Virus record (IMG/VR): IMGVR_UViG_3300042296_000310
Location: 1-47,541 of that record
DNA: 47,541 nucleotides
Strand: one strand, 5' to 3'
Origin: a virus
Below, in pieces: positions 28,012 to 47,067 of this stretch (position 1 is its first letter; the number at the start of each line of letters is the position of its first letter). A model generated the notes under the pieces. The model worked only from the letters and a program-made list of their open reading frames with translations. It was not told the DNA's origin and did no database searches. The position numbers and the translations under genes were made by a program.

Positions 28012-28720
28012 AATATTATTTTTAGACATTGAAACAAAACCTGCAAAGGTTTATACGTTTCGTATGTGGGATACTTCAATCAACCCTGAACAAGTTATAG
28101 AGCCGGGCGGCACCATATGTGTCGGCGCTAAATGGATGGGAAGTAAAGAAACAATATTCTTTTCAGATTGGGACCACGGACATGAAGCAATGTTACGAGA
28201 GGTTCATGCTCTCATTACAGAAGCCGACGCAATTGTCACTTACAATGGAGACAAGTTTGATTTACCTAAGTTATGGGGTGAGTTTCTTCTTAACGGAATG
28301 AAGCCTCCTCAGCCCCCAACGTCCATTGACATTCTTAAGGCGGTGAAGAAGCTAGGGTTTGACATGAACCGACTGGCCTACATCGGCCCTCTATTGAAGA
28401 TTGGTAAGAAACTGAAACACGAAGGCTTCGGCCTTTGGCGTTCAGTGATGGAAGGTGACGCTAAGGCACAAGGTCGTATGGAAAAGTATTGCGTACAAGA
28501 CGTAGTGCTTCTCGAGAAATTGTACAAGGTTGTGAAACCTTTCATTAAGAACCACCCTCACCTTGGAGACAAGGGCGGTAACGTTTGTGGAGCATGTGGT
28601 TCTAAACATGTTCAAAGCCGCGGCCATCGCCGCACTAAGTTCTTTAAAATACAACGCCTTCAATGCCAAACCTGTGGTTCATGGTCAGAAGGAAGCAGAG
28701 AGAAAATAAAAGTCGCATGA
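28001..28720 (+). CDS. DnaQ-like 3'-5' exonuclease with C-terminal zinc ribbon
   Basis: ATG 28001 gives 239 residues. DEDD-type motifs: ILFLDIETKP (D9, E11), IVTYNGDKFDLPKL and YCVQDVVLLEKLY. The C-terminus carries CGACGSKH ... CQTCGSW, a Cys4 zinc ribbon likely to bind nucleic acid. It resembles stand-alone RNase H-like exonucleases of phages, which may proofread, trim RNA primers or degrade DNA. The polymerase already has its own exonuclease domain, so the role is separate. The stop overlaps the next ATG. Confidence 0.85.
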   Translation: MPSKILFLDIETKPAKVYTFRMWDTSINPEQVIEPGGTICVGAKWMGSKETIFFSDWDHGHEAMLREVHALITEADAIVTYNGDKFDLPKLWGEFLLNGMKPPQPPTSIDILKAVKKLGFDMNRLAYIGPLLKIGKKLKHEGFGLWRSVMEGDAKAQGRMEKYCVQDVVLLEKLYKVVKPFIKNHPHLGDKGGNVCGACGSKHVQSRGHRRTKFFKIQRLQCQTCGSWSEGSREKIKVA

Positions 28721-29094
28721 ACAAGATTGAATACATAACCATGGGTTCTTGGCCAGTGTTGGTAGGGTTTACTGACAGCAAGAAAGCTTTCAATAAGTTA
28801 GTGAAAGATATTGAATGCCAAGAACACCTCGGTTGGATGGCGACTTCTACAGCTATGGCTACAACCCATTGTTTTGTAGACGATGAAGGAACTAACGCAT
28901 TTATTGTTACGTTTGACCCAGATATTTCTGTAGATGCTCTTCCTTCAATTATATCTCACGAAGTATGGCACGTAGTAGAAGGTATCTATGAGTATTTAGG
29001 TGAGAAAAAGTTTGGCAGTGAGGCCACTGCTTACTTAATACAATACCTAGTAGAAAGTATGTATAAAGGATTAGTCAATGGAAGAACTGCATAA
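28717..29094 (+). CDS. Zincin-like protein with HEVWH motif
   Basis: ATG 28717 overlaps the previous stop (ATGA). The 125-residue product contains SHEVWHVVEGIYEYLG, an HExxH zinc motif, and a downstream Glu in GSEATAYLIQYL that may be the third ligand. The helix context is right for a small metallopeptidase. The substrate is unknown; possible roles are host protein cleavage during takeover or processing of a phage protein. Confidence 0.65.
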   Translation: MNKIEYITMGSWPVLVGFTDSKKAFNKLVKDIECQEHLGWMATSTAMATTHCFVDDEGTNAFIVTFDPDISVDALPSIISHEVWHVVEGIYEYLGEKKFGSEATAYLIQYLVESMYKGLVNGRTA

Positions 29095-34072: not shown

Positions 34073-34279
34073 CTATCCTTTAATCCACATTATTAAAGAA
34101 GAGACAATACCGATTACACCTGATCCTATAATAAGAGTAGCAAGTTGAACTGCTCCCATACCTTTAGCTTTCAACTCTAATAGTTGATCTAGTTTGGCGT
34201 TTATATTTTTAACGTCATCTACTAGTTCAGATACTTGGTGTTCCATAACGGCAATCCTTTCGCCGTCTTTAATTGACAT
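34073..34279 (-). CDS. XhlA-like membrane protein, probable lysis accessory
   Basis: The frame opens at GTG 34297, but AAGGAG lies six bases before ATG 34279, so a 68-residue product is preferred. It has a charged coiled coil (MEHQVSELVDDVKNINAKLD, QLLELKAK) followed by one hydrophobic C-terminal helix (VQLATLIIGSGVIGIVSSLI). This is the layout of XhlA-type hemolysin/holin partners and of some Rz-like proteins. It lies directly before the lysozyme and holin genes, supporting a lysis role. Confidence 0.7.
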   Translation of the reverse strand: MSIKDGERIAVMEHQVSELVDDVKNINAKLDQLLELKAKGMGAVQLATLIIGSGVIGIVSSLIMWIKG

Positions 34280-34289
34280 TGTCATCTCC

Positions 34290-37200
34290 TTATTCACTTT
34301 CTTCTTCGGGAACTAGTCCTAATAAGGGCAGCATGTATTCCTTAGTCAAACCGTATGCTTCAGTCTTAATTTCCTTTACAATAACTATCTTTTCAGCGTC
34401 TGATGCCTGTTTCCATTCATTACTTTGAAGGACATTTCTCATTCCGTCTTTAATCAGACCCCCTTGAACTCTCTGCCATTCTTGTTTTCCGGCAGCATTC
34501 AGTTTTATTTTCTCCCCTTCGTGTTGGAAAGAAGATGGGGCACCAGTTACGATTGCATCATCTGTAGTTCTTTCCAAGCGTTGAAGCTCTTGAGAGACAG
34601 GGTCTTTCTTAATGTCTCGATAGTTATTAAGAGCTGTCCAGCTCCTGCCTTGCTTTATAGGGTCTCCGTACAAGTCATACTTAACAGGAAGGTCATCTGA
34701 TAGGCCGGGAATAGCAGACTTCAACCGTCCCTCAATTTTACTAGAGATAGTTCTGTCTCCTGCTGTGTCCCTCTTAACAGGGTCGACCTCAATCTGGTTG
34801 TACTGACGCATAGCCGCGGGCAAGAACTGTCCTGCCATACCTGCCAGCATACTAGCAGTAGCTGACTCCTTCTCCCATTCAGCACTCTCTTGGAAAGGCT
34901 CAATGTACATCGAGAGGTTTTCAGCAAAGCTGGTAGAGGCAAGCTCAGTCATCAAAGCCTGCCCCGCAAAAGCGATAGCCTTGGCCGTGCTGTCTGTGTC
35001 CTGAAGACCCTTGTTGTACGCAGAACGTATGGTCGCTACGTTAGCAGCTAAAGAGTTCTGAATATTAGTAGGCAAGATGGACAGGTTGAGTGCTGTCGCA
35101 TCAATGTACTTATCTTCAGTCTTGATAGCGTTAGGCATATAGCCTCCGGCCATCAAAGCCGCCATCTTATCAGGATCACTAGGTCCGGCAGGAGTAATTT
35201 TATCCTCACTTGCTTGGTCCCAATAGTACCAAATAAGGGCAGAGCTAAGTGCCATACGACCCAAAGCAATGTCCATACGAGGACCACCAGCAGCCAAGTC
35301 TTCCCTTGTTACTCTGTCTAGCAAAGCCAAAGGACCCATACGACGTATCTTCTGGAATATCAGACGGTCAGTAACACGGAAGAAAGGAAATATGAAGTTA
35401 GCGAAGAATGCTCCCGCTTGTTCCCCTCCCGACATGCCTGGGCGAATAGCCTTAGTTGCCTCCAGTTTAGAGGCAAGGTAAGAGGGAGTATCAACCAGCA
35501 GAGCTACATCAGCCATCTTACGGGCCTCGTCCAGCATTGACTGGTCTGCGTTAATTGCGATATTAGAGCCTTCTTCAAAAGCAGCTAGGCCAGTGAAGCC
35601 CTGCTTCCTTGCTTCTCTAATACCAAGAGTGTACATGTTAGCGTTCTCGTGGAAAGCACGGAAGAACGTGTCGGAAGCATGAAGGAAGTCTTGCACCTTG
35701 TTAAGAGGCTTAAGAATACCTCCCAGCTTTGCGTCCTGCATCTCAACCTTAGAAGAGATTTCACGATTGCCGTGTCCGGAAAGGAAAGCATCCCGAGTGT
35801 TCTTATAGGTATCTACATCTAACGCAGCGCGAAGAATACCGTACATCCTACCAGCCACTTCTTGAGGAGATACTCCGTCTTCTACACCATAGCCAGCGGC
35901 CTGCAATCCTTTACGAATTGGGAAGCCTGCCATGCCTACAGCCTGCTCTTCTATCTCACGTACAATCATGCTTGCGTTATCATAGGTGTTTTTGACGTGA
36001 GTGCCGAGACCAGACAACATCATCGAGTGACGGAAAGTAAGAACCTTCTGCCACCAATAAGGCTTCATCACAGAGCGGAGCAAGGAGTGCGCCCCGTCTG
36101 AGTTACCACTTTCCATTAAGAGCTGTACTTGCTTAACGAAGCGATTGAAGACTTCTTCATCTGCAAATGCAGCAATAGGATTACCCTCGAACTGTGTGAG
36201 GATATCATTGAGTGCTGTGATTTTATTCTTTGTGTACGACAATGCCTTCATTGCATTAAAGGCCCGAGCAATCTCAGCTTGGTCTTTAAAGATGTTAGCA
36301 AGGAGTTCATTGTACGAGAAAACAGTTTCAAGGTACTTGTGTTTGTCTTGAAGATTAAACGTACCGTTGTTCTTCTTCTCATGAAGAGCTACCAATTTTT
36401 CATCAGTAGCTTCTGCTACTGCGTCGTACTGGAATAGCCTCTTATCAAGTTCGCCAATAGACTTGGCCCCTTTGATTTGTTTGGCTGTTAAACCACGCTC
36501 ACGAGCAGCTCTCTTGCCCTCAGCCCACGAGCGGATCTCAGGAGTGTAGTTCTCCAGAGCGCCTTCGAGGATTTCTTTGGCATTACGAATCTTCTCTTGA
36601 TCGTCAGCCTCTGGTGCCTTGCGTTTACTGTATCTGTTATCGTTAACAGACATCATCTCAGAAGCTTTTTCTACTCCATCAATTATGTAGTTATCGGCAG
36701 GAACCTTTTCGTTCTGCGAGGTATAGGCAGGAGTAGCTAGACGCTCATCCATCGTCATATATTGACGAGCTTGCGTGTCACGAGCCTCCACTTCCCCAAG
36801 CAGAGATTCGTATGCTTGGAAAGGAATATGTTCGTCTCGGCTCAAATGTATTCGTACCATATCGACACGATCATCAGCGAGGGCTTTCTGCAAAGACTTT
36901 TGGTAAGTTTCTGCTAGATTAAACTCGTATTCCATATTTCCAATGTGATCACTGCCTTTTTCAAGATTATAGACAAGTTTCCCCCACTCTTTTCGATCTT
37001 CTTTTGAAGCTTCGAGATACCCTCGGGGAAACAAAGCACCTCTTAGTGCTTTTCTCGAAGCGTTAAATTCAGGTAAGAAACCTGTCAATTCTTCATCTAG
37101 TTTTCTGTACTCAAAGTTGCGCAGTAGATCTTCTCTACTAAGTCTTTTAGTTGGACTATTTTCTTGTAGTTTTTTCTCGAGAGCTTCTAGTTCAGTCCGA

Positions 37201-39584
37201 ATTTCTTGAATAATATCTGCGTCTTCAATTAGACGTTTACCTTCTGGCATATTACGAGCCGCTACAATAGCCCCAACTTTAAGCCGCATTTCTTGAAGTT
37301 TATTTTCGTTATAGTTAAGAAGATTTTTACCAGCATTCAATACCTGGGCATCAGGCATTGCATCAACAGCCATATCAGGGTTGCCTCCACGGTCAAAACC
37401 CTCTATCTCTTGAATATTGTGTTGAATTTCGTGGAGAATAGTGCTTAATTTTTCTTCTGTAGACAGATTTTCATTTACGGTTATTAGGTTGGTTGATTGA
37501 TTATATGAGCCTTTGTTGTACTCGCCAGTATCTTTTACTCGAATGCGAGTATTTCTTAAAGAAGGGTATTGCTCGAATAGTTCTTTATGCTCAAGCACCT
37601 GAGGAAGGTAAGCTGTTCCACTTCCCATCTTACTCAGACTACTTAAATCCAAGAAAGCCTTAGCATCAGAAAACTCGAAGCGAGGTTTACCATCAGGGCC
37701 GGTGAACCAGCGTGATTCATCAGGCATACCTAACCAAGTCTTAGGAGGTTTAGCTGCATTAGCACCAGCGTACATATAGCGGAAGCCGTTAGCGGCTACG
37801 TCACGGCCTTTGCCACTGACAACAGCAGTATGGGCCATACCAAGAATAGTCTTGATTTCCCGTTCACTGAACTTCAGTTTAATGTTTGCCTTACGCATAA
37901 GAGCTTTGAACTCATTGGCAAGACGATTAACAAAAGTTACAGGAAGACGCCCCTTGTCTGACATCTCAGCAAGGACTTCTTCAGCAGCACGTAGAGTACG
38001 CTTAGGGTCTCCGAAGTATTCTCTAGGGTGATCTACTAGCCACTTATCCACCTTGTCTTTAAACGTAGTGACGCTGTTGTCGTAGAAACCCTGAAGAACA
38101 TCTTCGAGAGTATCTCCAAACTTTTGTGAAAGACCGTAGTGTCCGAGGGCTTCGTGGAACACAACCGCAGACACAACATCTTCAGGGTCTACCTTCTTCT
38201 CCTTAGCGGCTGCTAAAATGTTTTCAGTATTTAACTGAACCTTGGTTAACCGACCCTGATCATCACGAGTAGTAACACCTAGGGCATCATTGTCAACACC
38301 GTCAAGGTCCTCGAAGTTTTCGTGAACCTCAAACTCTGGGCGATTGGTCCACTCTTTTGTAAGGCTGTCTACATGTTCAACAGCAGCTTCACCAGACTTA
38401 CGGACCTGTGCTTTGTACGCCTTGCTATTCTTACGGCTAGTGGGTTGCGCCATTCTAGGGGCATCAGTAGGAGTAGTAGGAGTAGCAGTTCCCTCAGAAG
38501 GATTGAGGCGTTTGTTTACAGTACTAGCGATGTAGCTTGTGCCCTTAATCACTCCCTCAAGAACCCCCTGCATTGCAGCGCCTTCGATACCTGCCATAGC
38601 TGTCTGACCGTAGTCATAGCTACCTTGGGCACCATAAGATACGTCTTGAGCCTGCATACCAGCGTCAACAAGCATGTTGGCAGCAGCCCCTTCGGCTACA
38701 CGACTACCTAGAGTAATCCCTCGACCAAGAGGGATGATGTCAACAGGAGATATGCCGCCAACCATGTTGGCCCCAAATCGTACAAGAGGATTAACGTCAC
38801 GGGACTCTACTTGTGCTCTGACATTGAGCAGCTCACGACGACGGAGCTCACCGATGAAGTCATCGTGAAGGTCTTCAATAGCTTCGTCTGACAAGGCGGG
38901 GTACTTGGCGCGTAGTTTTTCTTTAGAGATGCCGGCAACAGTTTCACTGTCTGTCCAGTCACCTATGGCACGGGTAAGAATACCCATAGGATTATGCGCC
39001 ATACCTTCTTCAAGGGCTGAGCCTAGACCTCCTACTCCGCTGTCGTCTTGCTGTACGTACTCGCCTAGAGTATCAGTAACACGGTCATAATAAACCACTT
39101 CATCAGAGAGTTGACCTCCTTTGGCAAGGAATTCTAAACGCTTTGCCCGTTCGGCTTCGAACCGTGCGCGTTCACTAGGCCCGCCAAAAGGGCGATTGGT
39201 TCTAGCAAAGAACTCGCCTATTTGATCAGTAGTGATGTTAGGATTTCTATCAAGATCAAGAAACTCAGTAATTTCTTCATCTGACATAGGGAGAGACTGA
39301 GAGCCTTCGGCCATCTGGTCAAACCCGCTACGCCCTACAAGAGGACGCTCAGGGAAAGCCCTCTCACGAGGAGGAGGAGATACTATAGGAGACAAACCTC
39401 GGGGACCTTCACCAACCGAGGCGGGTGCCTGTACATCCTCAGCAACAGGGGAAGGAGCGGCTTGTTCTTGAGAGAGAATGAACTCTCCTAGTTCGTCAGC
39501 AGTTGCTCCTTCAGGTCCTTCAATTTCAAAAATCTTGCCGGTAGTGGCGTCTTCAACTTTATAAATCACCAGCTTATTGGCCAC
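34290..39584 (-). CDS. Giant polyvalent virion/ejection protein with metalloprotease-like motifs
   Basis: 1764 residues starting at GTG 39584 (AGGAG 8 bases upstream). From the N-terminus: a short N-domain, a Pro-rich linker, helical regions, then HEALGHYG (H477-H482), like the HExxGH motif of polyvalent-protein metallopeptidases. A second site, HEIQHNIQEIEGFDRGGN (H718-E719...H722), is a strict HExxH matching the large polyvalent protein-associated (LPD23-like) domain. The last about 250 residues resemble the LPD38-like C-terminal domain. It occupies the position of P22 gp16, so it is probably ejected with DNA and may cleave host proteins or aid entry. Confidence 0.75.
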   Translation of the reverse strand: MANKLVIYKVEDATTGKIFEIEGPEGATADELGEFILSQEQAAPSPVAEDVQAPASVGEGPRGLSPIVSPPPRERAFPERPLVGRSGFDQMAEGSQSLPMSDEEITEFLDLDRNPNITTDQIGEFFARTNRPFGGPSERARFEAERAKRLEFLAKGGQLSDEVVYYDRVTDTLGEYVQQDDSGVGGLGSALEEGMAHNPMGILTRAIGDWTDSETVAGISKEKLRAKYPALSDEAIEDLHDDFIGELRRRELLNVRAQVESRDVNPLVRFGANMVGGISPVDIIPLGRGITLGSRVAEGAAANMLVDAGMQAQDVSYGAQGSYDYGQTAMAGIEGAAMQGVLEGVIKGTSYIASTVNKRLNPSEGTATPTTPTDAPRMAQPTSRKNSKAYKAQVRKSGEAAVEHVDSLTKEWTNRPEFEVHENFEDLDGVDNDALGVTTRDDQGRLTKVQLNTENILAAAKEKKVDPEDVVSAVVFHEALGHYGLSQKFGDTLEDVLQGFYDNSVTTFKDKVDKWLVDHPREYFGDPKRTLRAAEEVLAEMSDKGRLPVTFVNRLANEFKALMRKANIKLKFSEREIKTILGMAHTAVVSGKGRDVAANGFRYMYAGANAAKPPKTWLGMPDESRWFTGPDGKPRFEFSDAKAFLDLSSLSKMGSGTAYLPQVLEHKELFEQYPSLRNTRIRVKDTGEYNKGSYNQSTNLITVNENLSTEEKLSTILHEIQHNIQEIEGFDRGGNPDMAVDAMPDAQVLNAGKNLLNYNENKLQEMRLKVGAIVAARNMPEGKRLIEDADIIQEIRTELEALEKKLQENSPTKRLSREDLLRNFEYRKLDEELTGFLPEFNASRKALRGALFPRGYLEASKEDRKEWGKLVYNLEKGSDHIGNMEYEFNLAETYQKSLQKALADDRVDMVRIHLSRDEHIPFQAYESLLGEVEARDTQARQYMTMDERLATPAYTSQNEKVPADNYIIDGVEKASEMMSVNDNRYSKRKAPEADDQEKIRNAKEILEGALENYTPEIRSWAEGKRAARERGLTAKQIKGAKSIGELDKRLFQYDAVAEATDEKLVALHEKKNNGTFNLQDKHKYLETVFSYNELLANIFKDQAEIARAFNAMKALSYTKNKITALNDILTQFEGNPIAAFADEEVFNRFVKQVQLLMESGNSDGAHSLLRSVMKPYWWQKVLTFRHSMMLSGLGTHVKNTYDNASMIVREIEEQAVGMAGFPIRKGLQAAGYGVEDGVSPQEVAGRMYGILRAALDVDTYKNTRDAFLSGHGNREISSKVEMQDAKLGGILKPLNKVQDFLHASDTFFRAFHENANMYTLGIREARKQGFTGLAAFEEGSNIAINADQSMLDEARKMADVALLVDTPSYLASKLEATKAIRPGMSGGEQAGAFFANFIFPFFRVTDRLIFQKIRRMGPLALLDRVTREDLAAGGPRMDIALGRMALSSALIWYYWDQASEDKITPAGPSDPDKMAALMAGGYMPNAIKTEDKYIDATALNLSILPTNIQNSLAANVATIRSAYNKGLQDTDSTAKAIAFAGQALMTELASTSFAENLSMYIEPFQESAEWEKESATASMLAGMAGQFLPAAMRQYNQIEVDPVKRDTAGDRTISSKIEGRLKSAIPGLSDDLPVKYDLYGDPIKQGRSWTALNNYRDIKKDPVSQELQRLERTTDDAIVTGAPSSFQHEGEKIKLNAAGKQEWQRVQGGLIKDGMRNVLQSNEWKQASDAEKIVIVKEIKTEAYGLTKEYMLPLLGLVPEEESE

Positions 39585-39613: not shown

Positions 39614-40699
39614 CTAATTAACTATTCGGAACCTACTGGCAGGATCTTTGGCATCAGCAGGAGCAGGAGGAGTATTAATCCGGCCTTTCTTGCCTCCGCG
39701 GGTCAGACGTTCTTCGTAGTACTTCTTTTGTGCAGGCGTTGCACGACCGCTTAGAACGGCATCAGCTACTTCAGCATCTACTACACTAAGACCACGTTGT
39801 GTAGGTCTAGGAGCAGCACGAGGACGAGTAGCAGAGATACGTTGACTGTCAGCATTCTTTTCAGCAACTCTTGTACGCCGTTCAGTGTACGGAATCTGCA
39901 TTTGACCAGTAACAGGCATATCGTAAGCAGCTATTTGTTTGCGCTGCTCCATTGTCATCTCAGGAACAATACCTATTGTATTCAACTCTTCTTCAGAAAT
40001 TCCTCTGCTTCTTGCAAGAGCTACAAGATTTTGGTAAGGAACACCAGAAGCTGTCATACGAGCAATACGGCCAAGGTCTTTGTCTTTGTTGTCCGACAAC
40101 CTATCGTTAGCAAGATTCTCGCGTGCCGCAATCTGACTTTGTAGAGCAGCTCTTTCCTGTTCTTGAGCAGCAAAGTTTTGTTGTAAAGCAGAAGCTTCTT
40201 TAATAAAACCTTGAGCAGCTAAACGTTCCATCGCTTGCTGAGGATTATCAGTGAAGCCGTACATGGCATCACTCATACGCTCTCTATCACGAAGATTTTT
40301 ATATTCAGCTTCACCGCCACCTTGTACAAGAAATGCATCACTCAAAGTACCGAGGATGTTACGGAGAGTTCCTTTGGTGCCCCAATATCCATTACGACGA
40401 GGGATGATTTCTTTCATCTCTTCTTCGGTAGGAGGCATTCGGTCGTCATTAAGTACGTACCGCGGAGTTATTTCTGGTCGTTTGGCTGGGTCTGTGTAAG
40501 AAGGATTTCGAGATACTGGACGAGGGTCTGCTTGACGTTTTGATCCAATAACATTAATACCATCTCGAGCAATTTCTGCTTCTTGCTCAGGAGTCAACTC
40601 TTCAAGGTAATCAAATAAATCAGAAGTCAACGCTGCTTTGTTATTTATTTGATTGCCTGAGGCAGACAAAGATTGAAACAATAAATTAAGCGGGTCCAT
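39614..40699 (-). CDS. DNA ejection-type internal virion protein
   Basis: 361 residues, mostly helical and rich in Gln, Ala, Arg and Glu (ASALQQNFAAQEQERAALQS, IAARENLANDRLSDNKDK), with a Pro/Arg-rich disordered C-terminus (ISATRPRAAPRPTQRG). No catalytic motif. Its position between the S74-domain protein and the giant protein corresponds to P22 gp20/gp7, ejection proteins that form a conduit across the cell envelope. Assigned by position and composition, not by direct homology. It overlaps the next upstream gene by 14 bases. Confidence 0.55.
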   Translation of the reverse strand: MDPLNLLFQSLSASGNQINNKAALTSDLFDYLEELTPEQEAEIARDGINVIGSKRQADPRPVSRNPSYTDPAKRPEITPRYVLNDDRMPPTEEEMKEIIPRRNGYWGTKGTLRNILGTLSDAFLVQGGGEAEYKNLRDRERMSDAMYGFTDNPQQAMERLAAQGFIKEASALQQNFAAQEQERAALQSQIAARENLANDRLSDNKDKDLGRIARMTASGVPYQNLVALARSRGISEEELNTIGIVPEMTMEQRKQIAAYDMPVTGQMQIPYTERRTRVAEKNADSQRISATRPRAAPRPTQRGLSVVDAEVADAVLSGRATPAQKKYYEERLTRGGKKGRINTPPAPADAKDPASRFRIVN

Positions 40700-41363
40700 T
40701 TACAATCTCCCGAAGTTTGCCATAGTCTACGGTCATGTATCCGCCAATGACTGGGCCAAGTGCATCGGGATAATGTTCTTCAACTTCTTGTGCCATAACA
40801 CCAACGTACGGACCTTGACCGCTGATGTACTTATAACGGTACAGACCCACTTCACCAAAGTCACCGATCTTTTTAATGTCTTGCTTAAGACGTATATCGG
40901 ATGCTGCCGCAATCTGACCAATAAACTTAGTAATGTCAGGTTTTTCAGAAGAAGTACCTTTGTTGTAAGTACCAGCACCGCTAATAAGATTGCCGGCCTT
41001 AAAACCTGTATCAGCTTGTTGACCAAGTCGATCCATGTAACTACCCACATACTGGTTGTTCATTTGATTACCAAAGTTCATCAAAGCCTTGCCTGTTACA
41101 CCAGACCGCAGAAGCCCTTTAGCCGCCATGTTGCTGGTTATGCCACGAGAGCCTCGTTCTGCCATAAAATCATAACCAGTTGCGTTTTTAAATGCTTCGA
41201 AACCCGATGAATCACCAGACAGGAGGGAATTAAGAGCGTTAGCCCCTGTTGTCGCATTGGTTTGCAGACCTCCAAAGTCACGTTGCATGTTTTCGTAGGC
41301 TAAATTCTTTGACTCTTGTTTTGACCTTTTACCGCCAAAAACAGTCTGCATTATTTTACCCAT
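40686..41363 (-). CDS. Virion protein with C-terminal S74 chaperone domain
   Basis: The first about 150 residues are Gly/Asn/Ala-rich and helical (FGGLQTNATTGANALNSLLS, NMAAKGLLRSGVTGKALMNF), as in gp7-like ejection proteins. The end has SDIRLKQDIKKIG, LYRYKY, YVGVMAQEVEEHYPDALG and YMTVDYGKLRE, the peptidase S74 intramolecular chaperone domain. In tail fibres that domain trimerises and then cuts itself off at a Ser; here S of SDIRLKQ is the candidate. The combination of an ejection-type N-terminus and S74 suggests trimerisation-coupled maturation. Confidence 0.7.
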   Translation of the reverse strand: MGKIMQTVFGGKRSKQESKNLAYENMQRDFGGLQTNATTGANALNSLLSGDSSGFEAFKNATGYDFMAERGSRGITSNMAAKGLLRSGVTGKALMNFGNQMNNQYVGSYMDRLGQQADTGFKAGNLISGAGTYNKGTSSEKPDITKFIGQIAAASDIRLKQDIKKIGDFGEVGLYRYKYISGQGPYVGVMAQEVEEHYPDALGPVIGGYMTVDYGKLREIVNGPA

Positions 41364-44487: not shown

Positions 44488-45867
44488 TTAAACCTCGTTC
44501 ATAGTAGCGTAATCAACTCTGAAACCGACTAATCCAGAAAAAGACAAGACAAACAAACGTCCAGGTCTTTTTAAAAGACCTAAAGATCGAAAAGTTAAGT
44601 CTTTGCCATATTCAGCTTTGACGCCCATAGACATTTGTCTAGGATTAGAGAAAGTAAAACCTCCGTCGTCTGACCATTTTATTTCAAGAAGACCTGGGAC
44701 TGTGTAAGAAGTAGACCAACCTACATTAGCCCTGATATTGACTGATGCACACTGTTCTTGCTTGCCTTGTAAAGGTACAAATCCAGACACTTCACAAACA
44801 ATTAATAGATTATTGTCATCAATTTCGTTTGTATCTAAAATCCAAATACGATTATCAATAGATGATCCTGCGTAAACATTATCTTGTTCTTGTAACCCAA
44901 GATGCGCTAACCAATTATCTAAAAGATATGTATTCCATCTAGCCCAAGAATTTTTAGTTATATTATAAACTAAAGTAATTTGGTCAGTTGTAATAACATA
45001 AAAATCGCAACGATTGCTAAGAAATACCCAGCAACGAATGTTAGTCGCGGTTTTTAAAAGTTCTTCTTCACTGTCTGTACTAATTTTTTTAGGATTGCCT
45101 TGAGCAAGAACAACTTCTTTTGTATTAGTAATCCAAAGTAAACAAGGGTACCCGTTATAAGAACTTCTACATACGCTATCTTTATTAAAAGTTCCAGTAG
45201 TATACGCTCTTCCACTTATTCTGGCGTAAGGAGCATCTTGATCTCCTGTTGAAGACCAGACTTCAACACTTTCGCTACCAATAAACCATATTTCATCAGA
45301 AACAATGTTTATAGAAAGAATAGGGTCAGGCTCACGTTCAGCCGATGCAAAATTAAGAGGATCAATTACAGTTTCTAAATAAGGCAACCAATAAAAACGA
45401 AACGTATCTTTAACACCAAATAAAAATGAACCGTCAATTTGCGCAACTGTTTGAAAAAGTTGACCAGGTTCAGGTAAAAAAAGTTCTGTAACTACTCCGT
45501 TTTCAATAAGATGCGCTCTACCGCCAGATACACAGACTGAATAATTTTCGTTTCCAGCAAATTGACAAAAACCTTCCACGGTTAAAGTTGTTAAAAAAGT
45601 AGAAATTTTAGTAATTTGATTAAAAGAATATAAAGAATTTCCAGAAACAACTAACCAATTGTTTTCATTAGAGCCGTCTTGTTGCCACATGCCTTGAATA
45701 GGGCCGGTACCTACTGTCGAAAAAGCGGTAAGGGAAGGTCTTGAAAATCTTGAAATGCCGTCAGGAGAAAAAGGATTATCTCCTAAGTACATATTACTTA
45801 ATTTAATACGAGCAATATCAGTGTCGCGAGACTCCCAATCATTTAACCCTAAAGGTATTGTGACCAT
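44488..45867 (-). CDS. Packaged-DNA stabilisation / tail hub protein, P22 gp10-like
   Basis: The 459-residue product has the length and start of the Phage_stabilise (P22 gp10, 472 aa) family: VTIPLGLNDWESRDTDIARI, then KLSNMYLGDNPFS and beta-propeller-like repeats (GMWQQDGSNENNWLVVSGNS). It forms the tail hub that seals the portal after packaging. It overlaps the gp4-like gene by 19 bases as expected for a pair made together. DNA is very AT-rich (12 of 60 GC at 45601-45660). Confidence 0.87.
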   Translation of the reverse strand: MVTIPLGLNDWESRDTDIARIKLSNMYLGDNPFSPDGISRFSRPSLTAFSTVGTGPIQGMWQQDGSNENNWLVVSGNSLYSFNQITKISTFLTTLTVEGFCQFAGNENYSVCVSGGRAHLIENGVVTELFLPEPGQLFQTVAQIDGSFLFGVKDTFRFYWLPYLETVIDPLNFASAEREPDPILSINIVSDEIWFIGSESVEVWSSTGDQDAPYARISGRAYTTGTFNKDSVCRSSYNGYPCLLWITNTKEVVLAQGNPKKISTDSEEELLKTATNIRCWVFLSNRCDFYVITTDQITLVYNITKNSWARWNTYLLDNWLAHLGLQEQDNVYAGSSIDNRIWILDTNEIDDNNLLIVCEVSGFVPLQGKQEQCASVNIRANVGWSTSYTVPGLLEIKWSDDGGFTFSNPRQMSMGVKAEYGKDLTFRSLGLLKRPGRLFVLSFSGLVGFRVDYATMNEV

Positions 45868-46647: not shown

Positions 46648-47067
46648 TTAAGTGGCTAGGCGGTGCGCAATCGCTCCGACCATATTTGGATTAAACTGCC
46701 AAGGGTCATCAAATTTGAGCGCACCCATAACAATCTCGCTGCAAAACCATAGCGAGGCCGATCCGCTGTGCGGACGCCATACAAAACCAAACAGGCCGAA
46801 ATAGTCATATCCTAAGCCTTCGCGCTCTTCGAAAAATGCCCGCGCATATTCCTCGTCCCCGTCGATCTCGATAATGTCCCAGCGGTCAGGGTGGTATTCA
46901 ATATCCTTAAAACGCACCCCGCCGTCCCGTGAGGATGCCGACGCCGACATGCCGTCACTAAAAACCAGCTCGACATGGCTATACGGCCCCCGCGTCCACC
47001 AACGGACGGAGGCGTCAAACGCACCAGCGAAACCGCCGCGCTTACCCTTGTAAAGCGCAACCTTCAT
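46648..47067 (-). CDS. Permuted NlpC/P60-like papain-fold hydrolase
   Basis: 139 residues with GPYSHVELVFSDG (H31) and LWFCSEIVMG (C109), the His-before-Cys order of permuted NlpC/P60 (YiiX/LRAT-type) enzymes, and YDYFGLFGFVWRP between. Such enzymes cut amide or ester bonds in peptidoglycan or lipids. Placed among GC-rich tail genes (38 of 60 GC at 46921-46980), it may be a tail-associated entry enzyme. The start overlaps the 133-aa gene by 4 bases. Confidence 0.72.
   Translation of the reverse strand: MKVALYKGKRGGFAGAFDASVRWWTRGPYSHVELVFSDGMSASASSRDGGVRFKDIEYHPDRWDIIEIDGDEEYARAFFEEREGLGYDYFGLFGFVWRPHSGSASLWFCSEIVMGALKFDDPWQFNPNMVGAIAHRLAT

Follow-up and report, generated by a model that had tools for sequence, protein, structure and literature searches.

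The virus record IMGVR_UViG_3300042296_000310 was analyzed over its full 47,541 bases (referred to here as the window), and one of its genes encodes a protein of 1,764 amino acids (aa) that may well serve a P22-like podovirus as its gp16-type ejection protein (internal virion protein), with enzyme modules added as in the polyvalent proteins. As judged from sequence comparison and structure prediction, the protein would consist of an N-terminal region, a HEXXGH zincin (D1), a HExQH zincin (D2) and, finally, a C-terminal core common to phage internal virion proteins, with D1 probably serving in processing and D2 as an effector. Polyvalent proteins were defined by the domains that they contain, and podoviral ejection proteins by what they do when DNA is delivered, and the family described here would unite the two: depending on the phage, a single type of C-terminal core, located in the gp16 slot of P22, is joined to a transglycosylase, to an ADP-ribosyltransferase, to one zincin or to two. 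The gene and its parts are as follows.

34290..39584, minus strand: whole gene, one open frame of 1,764 aa with a GTG start
38400..39584, minus strand: N-terminal region, residues 1-395, kept in part of the family (profile built in this analysis)
37773..38399, minus strand: D1, predicted HEXXGH zincin, residues 396-604
38139..38156, minus strand: HEALGH, residues 477-482, with putative zinc ligands H477 and H482 and putative base E478
37965..37982, minus strand: EEVLAE, residues 535-540, with putative third ligand E536
36705..37730, minus strand: D2, predicted HExQH zincin with a long helical insertion, residues 619 to ~960
37419..37433, minus strand: HEIQH, residues 718-722, with putative zinc ligands H718 and H722 and putative base E719
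36780..36794, minus strand: EVEAR, residues 931-935, candidate third ligand of D2
34293..36608, minus strand: C-terminal core of internal-virion-protein type, residues 993-1764

The gene and its two motifs

A preliminary description, made from the DNA alone, had placed a 1,764-aa protein at positions 34290 to 39584, and we confirmed this as a single open frame on the minus strand, with an AGGAG ribosome-binding-like site directly 5' of the GTG start. The motif positions given there, HEALGHYG at residues 477-484 and HEIQHN at residues 718-723, were likewise correct, and both shuffling and conservation in homologues speak against chance. In shuffles of the 1,764-aa protein, HE..GH arose in 0.14% of cases, HE..GH followed downstream by EE..A[ED] in 0.02%, and HE..H in 2.4%. 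While the last figure illustrates that short motifs do arise randomly, the idea that the motifs are mere chance matches is refuted by their invariance across dozens of homologues, by the predicted zincin folds and by a match to the Pfam family DUF6782, and we regard its probability as negligible.

Neither a whole-protein scan of IMG/VR nor a megablast search against phages found relatives, profile searches against solved structures yielded no clear relative of the protein, and an NCBIfam search of it gave nothing useful; the relatives discussed below were found through domain-level searches and tblastn. The protein contains no hydrophobic membrane segment scoring above 1.3 on the Kyte-Doolittle scale.

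D1, a predicted HEXXGH zincin

Relatives of D1 were collected by searching IMG/VR with three aligned sequences spanning the HEALGH region, which gave at least 261 relatives, of which 80 were kept. Among 75 distinct sequences, the motif reads HExxGH in 72 and HExxAH in 3. In an alignment of 73 sequences, H477, E478, H482, G484 and E536 are all invariant, and the putative ligands and general base thus remain unchanged down to approximately 22% identity. E536, the putative third ligand, lies in EEVLAE, 52 residues downstream of HEALGH. Contigs from Comamonadaceae and other Pseudomonadota (L184 to L196; Comamonas, Delftia, Acidovorax and Polaromonas) likewise encode very large proteins that contain D1, with HE..GH present in 13/13 and EE.LAE in 11/13.

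D1 was folded separately, because helical matches to the insertion in D2 dominated a structure search made with both domains in one model; a joint alignment with rows containing only D2 misaligned HExQH onto HEXXGH and was not used for folding. The AlphaFold model of D1 alone (predicted local distance difference test score [pLDDT], 85.6; predicted template modeling score [pTM], 0.81) comprises an N-terminal helix, a three-stranded sheet, the helix bearing HEXXGH and a further helix (150-165) that carries E536. Its best matches among solved structures, compared with VIA-align, were mostly zincins: YbeY (1oz9; Z, 6.5; 4.0 Å over 114 residues), anthrax lethal factor (4pkt; Z, 6.3; 4.5 Å over 148 residues), a zincin-like protein (3e11; Z, 6.1) and PprI (8sln; Z, 5.6; 2.8 Å over 91 residues). 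Against predicted viral proteins, the fold gave eight matches at an E value of ≤0.001, several of them to proteins named after the large polyvalent protein-associated domain (LPD), and it also pointed to a protein of the cultured Escherichia phage PTXU04 (A0A482MT02) as bearing a D1-type domain. A Pfam search with the window's D1 matched no family. At the level of sequence and model, D1 carries the marks of the HEXXXH polyvalent zincins, namely, a HEXXXH motif and a glutamate on the following helix as putative third ligand.

D2, a predicted HExQH zincin

The second domain is matched by DUF6782 (PF20573, "putative metallopeptidase") at 27.8 bits in the whole protein (cut-off, 27) and at 32.7 bits when the domain is searched alone, and the match runs through HEIQH. 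IMG/VR contains at least 536 relatives of D2. In 13 aligned relatives, HExQHxxQxxE, including Q725 and E728, is invariant except at the x positions, and in 51 of 80 further relatives an ExEAR motif follows HExQH at a distance of 31 to 292 residues. E931 and E933 of ExEAR are the candidates for the third ligand of D2, which probably lies in this motif. D2 differs from DUF6782 in that a helical insertion of ~200 residues precedes the candidate third ligand, and the match spans approximately one-third of the Pfam model.

The two metalloprotease-like centers that had been proposed at the outset thus stand as far as the predicted zincin fold, the invariant ligands and the DUF6782 match are concerned, but they are not two of a kind: HEALGH is a HExxxH rather than a HExxH motif and belongs to another type of zincin than HEIQH. 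The third-ligand candidates, E536 in D1 and E931/E933 in D2, had been overlooked. D1 was also considered as a duplicate of D2 and this was rejected: the overlap between the two profiles is limited to the short common zincin core (~30 columns; probability, 75%).

The C-terminal core

Contrary to the initial assignment of a polyvalent-type C-terminal domain, profile searches detected no LPD at the C terminus of the protein, where the match is instead to phrog_6651 ("internal virion protein"), weak in the window protein itself (E value, 0.003) and strong in its relatives. There, phrog_6651 was found in the core of 7/25 members (best E value, 2e-18) and was the sole PHROG match in the C terminus, while a genome-level search detected it in 9/23 records (best E value, 1.3e-38). 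In Roseobacter phage CRP-804 (Autographiviridae), the core sits in the protein annotated as "internal virion protein D."

LPD38 (PF18857) was specifically considered as the C-terminal domain and not found: neither it (up to an E value of 1) nor any other LPD matched the C terminus of the window protein, LPD38 had no match in 23 relative records (a 14-genome control for that search was equally empty), and comparison with the LPD38 region of Vibrio phage 1.211.A showed only a loose similarity that did not reach significance. The same Pfam library gives LPD38 a score of 161 bits in that phage, which is P22-like and whose gp16 slot is occupied by a polyvalent protein of 2,715 aa that combines a methyltransferase domain with LPD38 (L199, 4709-12856).

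Exchange of modules among relatives

D1 was found in 34 proteins that bear the core, 17 of which also contain D2. This set was gathered mainly through D1; when the core alone was used for a scan, 16 loci had a readable N terminus and 15 of them contained D1, although several of these loci are the same records as in the set gathered through D1. What follows D1 varies. In one relative (L013), ART-PolyVal, an ADP-ribosyltransferase domain, scores over the cut-off directly after D1, at the position that D2 has in the window protein, and three others (L016, L015 and L024) show ART-PolyVal matches after D1 that remain below the cut-off. Another relative (L182) has an SLT transglycosylase (E value, 4.3e-17) ahead of the core and no zincin, and in L002 and L005 the core is present with neither D1 nor D2. 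These relatives, whose version of the gene encodes ART-PolyVal or SLT, support the domain shuffling implied by the earlier polyvalent interpretation. A further possible cassette was seen in a 2,246-aa relative (L018, 6513-13250), in which HATPase_c (GyrB/Hsp90-like ATPase) scores above the cut-off between D1 and the core.

Gene order and neighbors

The gene order supports the earlier proposal that the protein takes the P22 gp16 slot. The neighbors on which this assignment draws are as follows.

44488..45867, minus strand: head closure protein Hc3 (P22 gp10 type; phrog_578, E value 2.1e-62), anchor of the P22-like order
40686..41363, minus strand: gp7-like DNA ejection protein, 225 aa, with a C-terminal S74 domain (phrog_598, phrog_4287, PF13884; synteny)
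39614..40699, minus strand: gene in gp20-like position, 361 aa, directly upstream, with syntenic homologues in most relatives
34073..34297, minus strand: 74-aa membrane protein with a hydrophobic segment, next downstream, overlapping the 1,764-aa gene by 8 nucleotides; a homologue lies directly downstream in many relatives

In the window, Hc3, a 193-aa gene, a tail spike gene, a gene at 41356, the gp7-like gene, the gp20-like gene and the 1,764-aa gene follow one another in an order that matches 10-26-14-7-20-16 of P22. The terminase, portal, scaffold and coat genes are on the same strand at the opposite end of the record, an arrangement that a permuted genome would be expected to show. Among the relatives, homologues of the gp7-like gene lie upstream of the core gene in ~25 of the 30 examined, in most cases with a gp20-like gene in between; both neighbors are thus found in the majority of relatives whose records extend to that side. 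The Peptidase_S74 intramolecular chaperone domain that ends the gp7-like protein of the window (PF13884; E value, 1.1e-8) is kept in 7 of ~25 relatives, the others consisting of the N-terminal part without S74.

Possible roles of the two zincins

How might these parts work together? By analogy with T7 and P22 (PMC8954989, PMC8402733), the C-terminal core would bring the protein into the head during packaging and let it leave by way of the tail. D1 would be a protease with a processing role, whose substrate is the ejection protein to which it belongs or a partner (gp7 or gp20), either during assembly or on arrival; almost all close relatives retain D1, whatever comes after it, and it would act in processing or in release of the cassette. 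The site behind D1 would then be a cassette position, filled by the D2 zincin here and by an ADP-ribosyltransferase in relatives, and its content would be an effector that, once released, acts on proteins of the host in the early phase of infection. D2 is swapped for an ADP-ribosyltransferase, which would need cytosolic NAD, and an effector role would suit D2. Proteolysis in the ejection pathway has a precedent, as maturation of P22 gp7 depends on cleavage by OpdA, a host protease. We consider this combination of a processing D1 and an effector D2 about as probable as all else taken together. A more specific version, to which we give only limited credence, casts D1 as a dedicated phage-encoded release protease: by cutting the ejection protein, either while it is being delivered or afterwards, D1 would free the enzyme cassette (zincin or ADP-ribosyltransferase) behind it. 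If true, the gp16-slot protein would be a platform for delivery in general, equipped with a release protease of its own.

Several observations weigh against the favored explanation. The matches of D1 in the PDB are modest, with Z values no higher than that of YbeY, and the Foldseek E values exceed 0.3 and are not significant, so that the zincin fold of D1 is deduced from concordant weak matches together with the ligand pattern. In the two-domain model, the predicted helix that carries the candidate third ligand of D2 is of low confidence. Comparisons of the core with P22 gp16 and T7 gp16 by hidden Markov models and hhalign, for which single sequences only were used, gave no match. The absence of D1 from three core-bearing relatives (L002, L005 and L182) indicates that D1 is dispensable for core function. 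Moreover, a role of D1 as a second effector would be compatible with the same pattern.

This last point leads to the view taken in the preliminary description, in which both zincins are effectors that reach the host cytoplasm after ejection and cut host proteins such as defense, transcription or envelope factors. Zincins do serve as effectors in other conflict systems (PMC5512222), and D2 occupies the place of the relatives' NAD-requiring ADP-ribosyltransferase; however, D1 is far more constant than D2 and in this resembles a shared housekeeping step more than an arms-race effector, which leaves a common effector role for both domains a minority explanation. Entry of protease activity into the cell at infection, as had been suggested, is possible on the strength of sequence and models. 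Less probable, in our estimation, is that both zincins are only maturation proteases, acting on ejection proteins before packaging and having no role in the host. Cleavage before packaging is known from P1 DdrB, a polyvalent protein with a zincin (PMC5512222), and the cutting of P22 gp7 by a host protease points in the same direction, but the virion RNA polymerase of N4 retains its zincin domain uncut in the virion (PMC5512222), and the exchange of D2 for an ADP-ribosyltransferase suits an effector position better. The N4 enzyme is also what lends some plausibility to the idea that one or both domains are catalytically dead and serve as folding or packaging modules, since N4 cannot encapsidate the polymerase without its zincin-containing region and packages it in unprocessed form. 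Structural use alone, however, does not explain why the ligands and base of D1 are invariant across such divergent sequences, nor why HExQH of D2 is invariant, and we hold a loss of catalysis to be quite improbable. If the core does deliver the protein, comparing the cassettes carried on this constant core would be a direct route to what podoviruses send in first and to whether a built-in protease frees the cargo.

Relation to known systems

Dipeptidyl peptidase III (M49) shares the HEXXGH hexapeptide with D1, and the pairing of HEXXGH with EExxAE ~50 residues further on, as in D1, is reminiscent of that family as well. HEXXGH is the hallmark of M49 (PMC5805324). However, D1 is one small domain, whereas dipeptidyl peptidase III is a two-lobed enzyme, and membership of D1 in M49 was not supported: no M49 model matched D1 of the window, only 1 of the 73 relatives did so, weakly (E value, 0.0073), and when structures were compared, dipeptidyl peptidase III came no higher than 27th (Z, 4.7).

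Closer to D1 are the polyvalent zincins with HEXXXH described by Iyer et al. in 2017, who also reported proteins with several zincins and raised both autoprocessing and effector hypotheses (PMC5512222). The D1 model has the fold described for them, and the window protein would be a further example of this known class; what is added is that close relatives appear to swap the second zincin for another enzyme. A difference is that D1 is linked here to a protein of the gp16 slot whose core is defined as an internal-virion one. The terms P22, "ejection" and "internal virion" are absent from the main text of that study, and in the incomplete collection of literature searched we found nothing joining large polyvalent proteins to phage ejection; the link between the gp16-slot core and exchangeable zincin, ADP-ribosyltransferase and SLT modules may thus be underdescribed.

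With gp16 of T7 (internal virion protein D) and of P22, the protein shares its place after gp7/gp20 (gp14/gp15 in T7) and the combination of an enzyme at the N terminus with a large C-terminal core. The relative in which an SLT transglycosylase is joined to the same core (L182) has the very arrangement of T7 gp16 (PMC8954989); in the window protein, zincins replace the transglycosylase, and at 1,764 aa it is larger than its counterparts in P22 (609) and T7 (1,318). That no hydrophobic segment exceeded the threshold of 1.3 is a further difference from these two proteins.

Two other genes of the window deserve mention. Among the early genes, positions 28663-29094 (plus strand) encode a 143-aa protein in which HEVWH is followed by SEATAY, possibly a third zincin, although it has no Pfam support. 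In the head-tail block, positions 46648-47067 (minus strand) encode a 139-aa protein that matches phrog_1128 (E value, 1e-39), which is named "enoyl-CoA hydratase/carnithine racemase-like."
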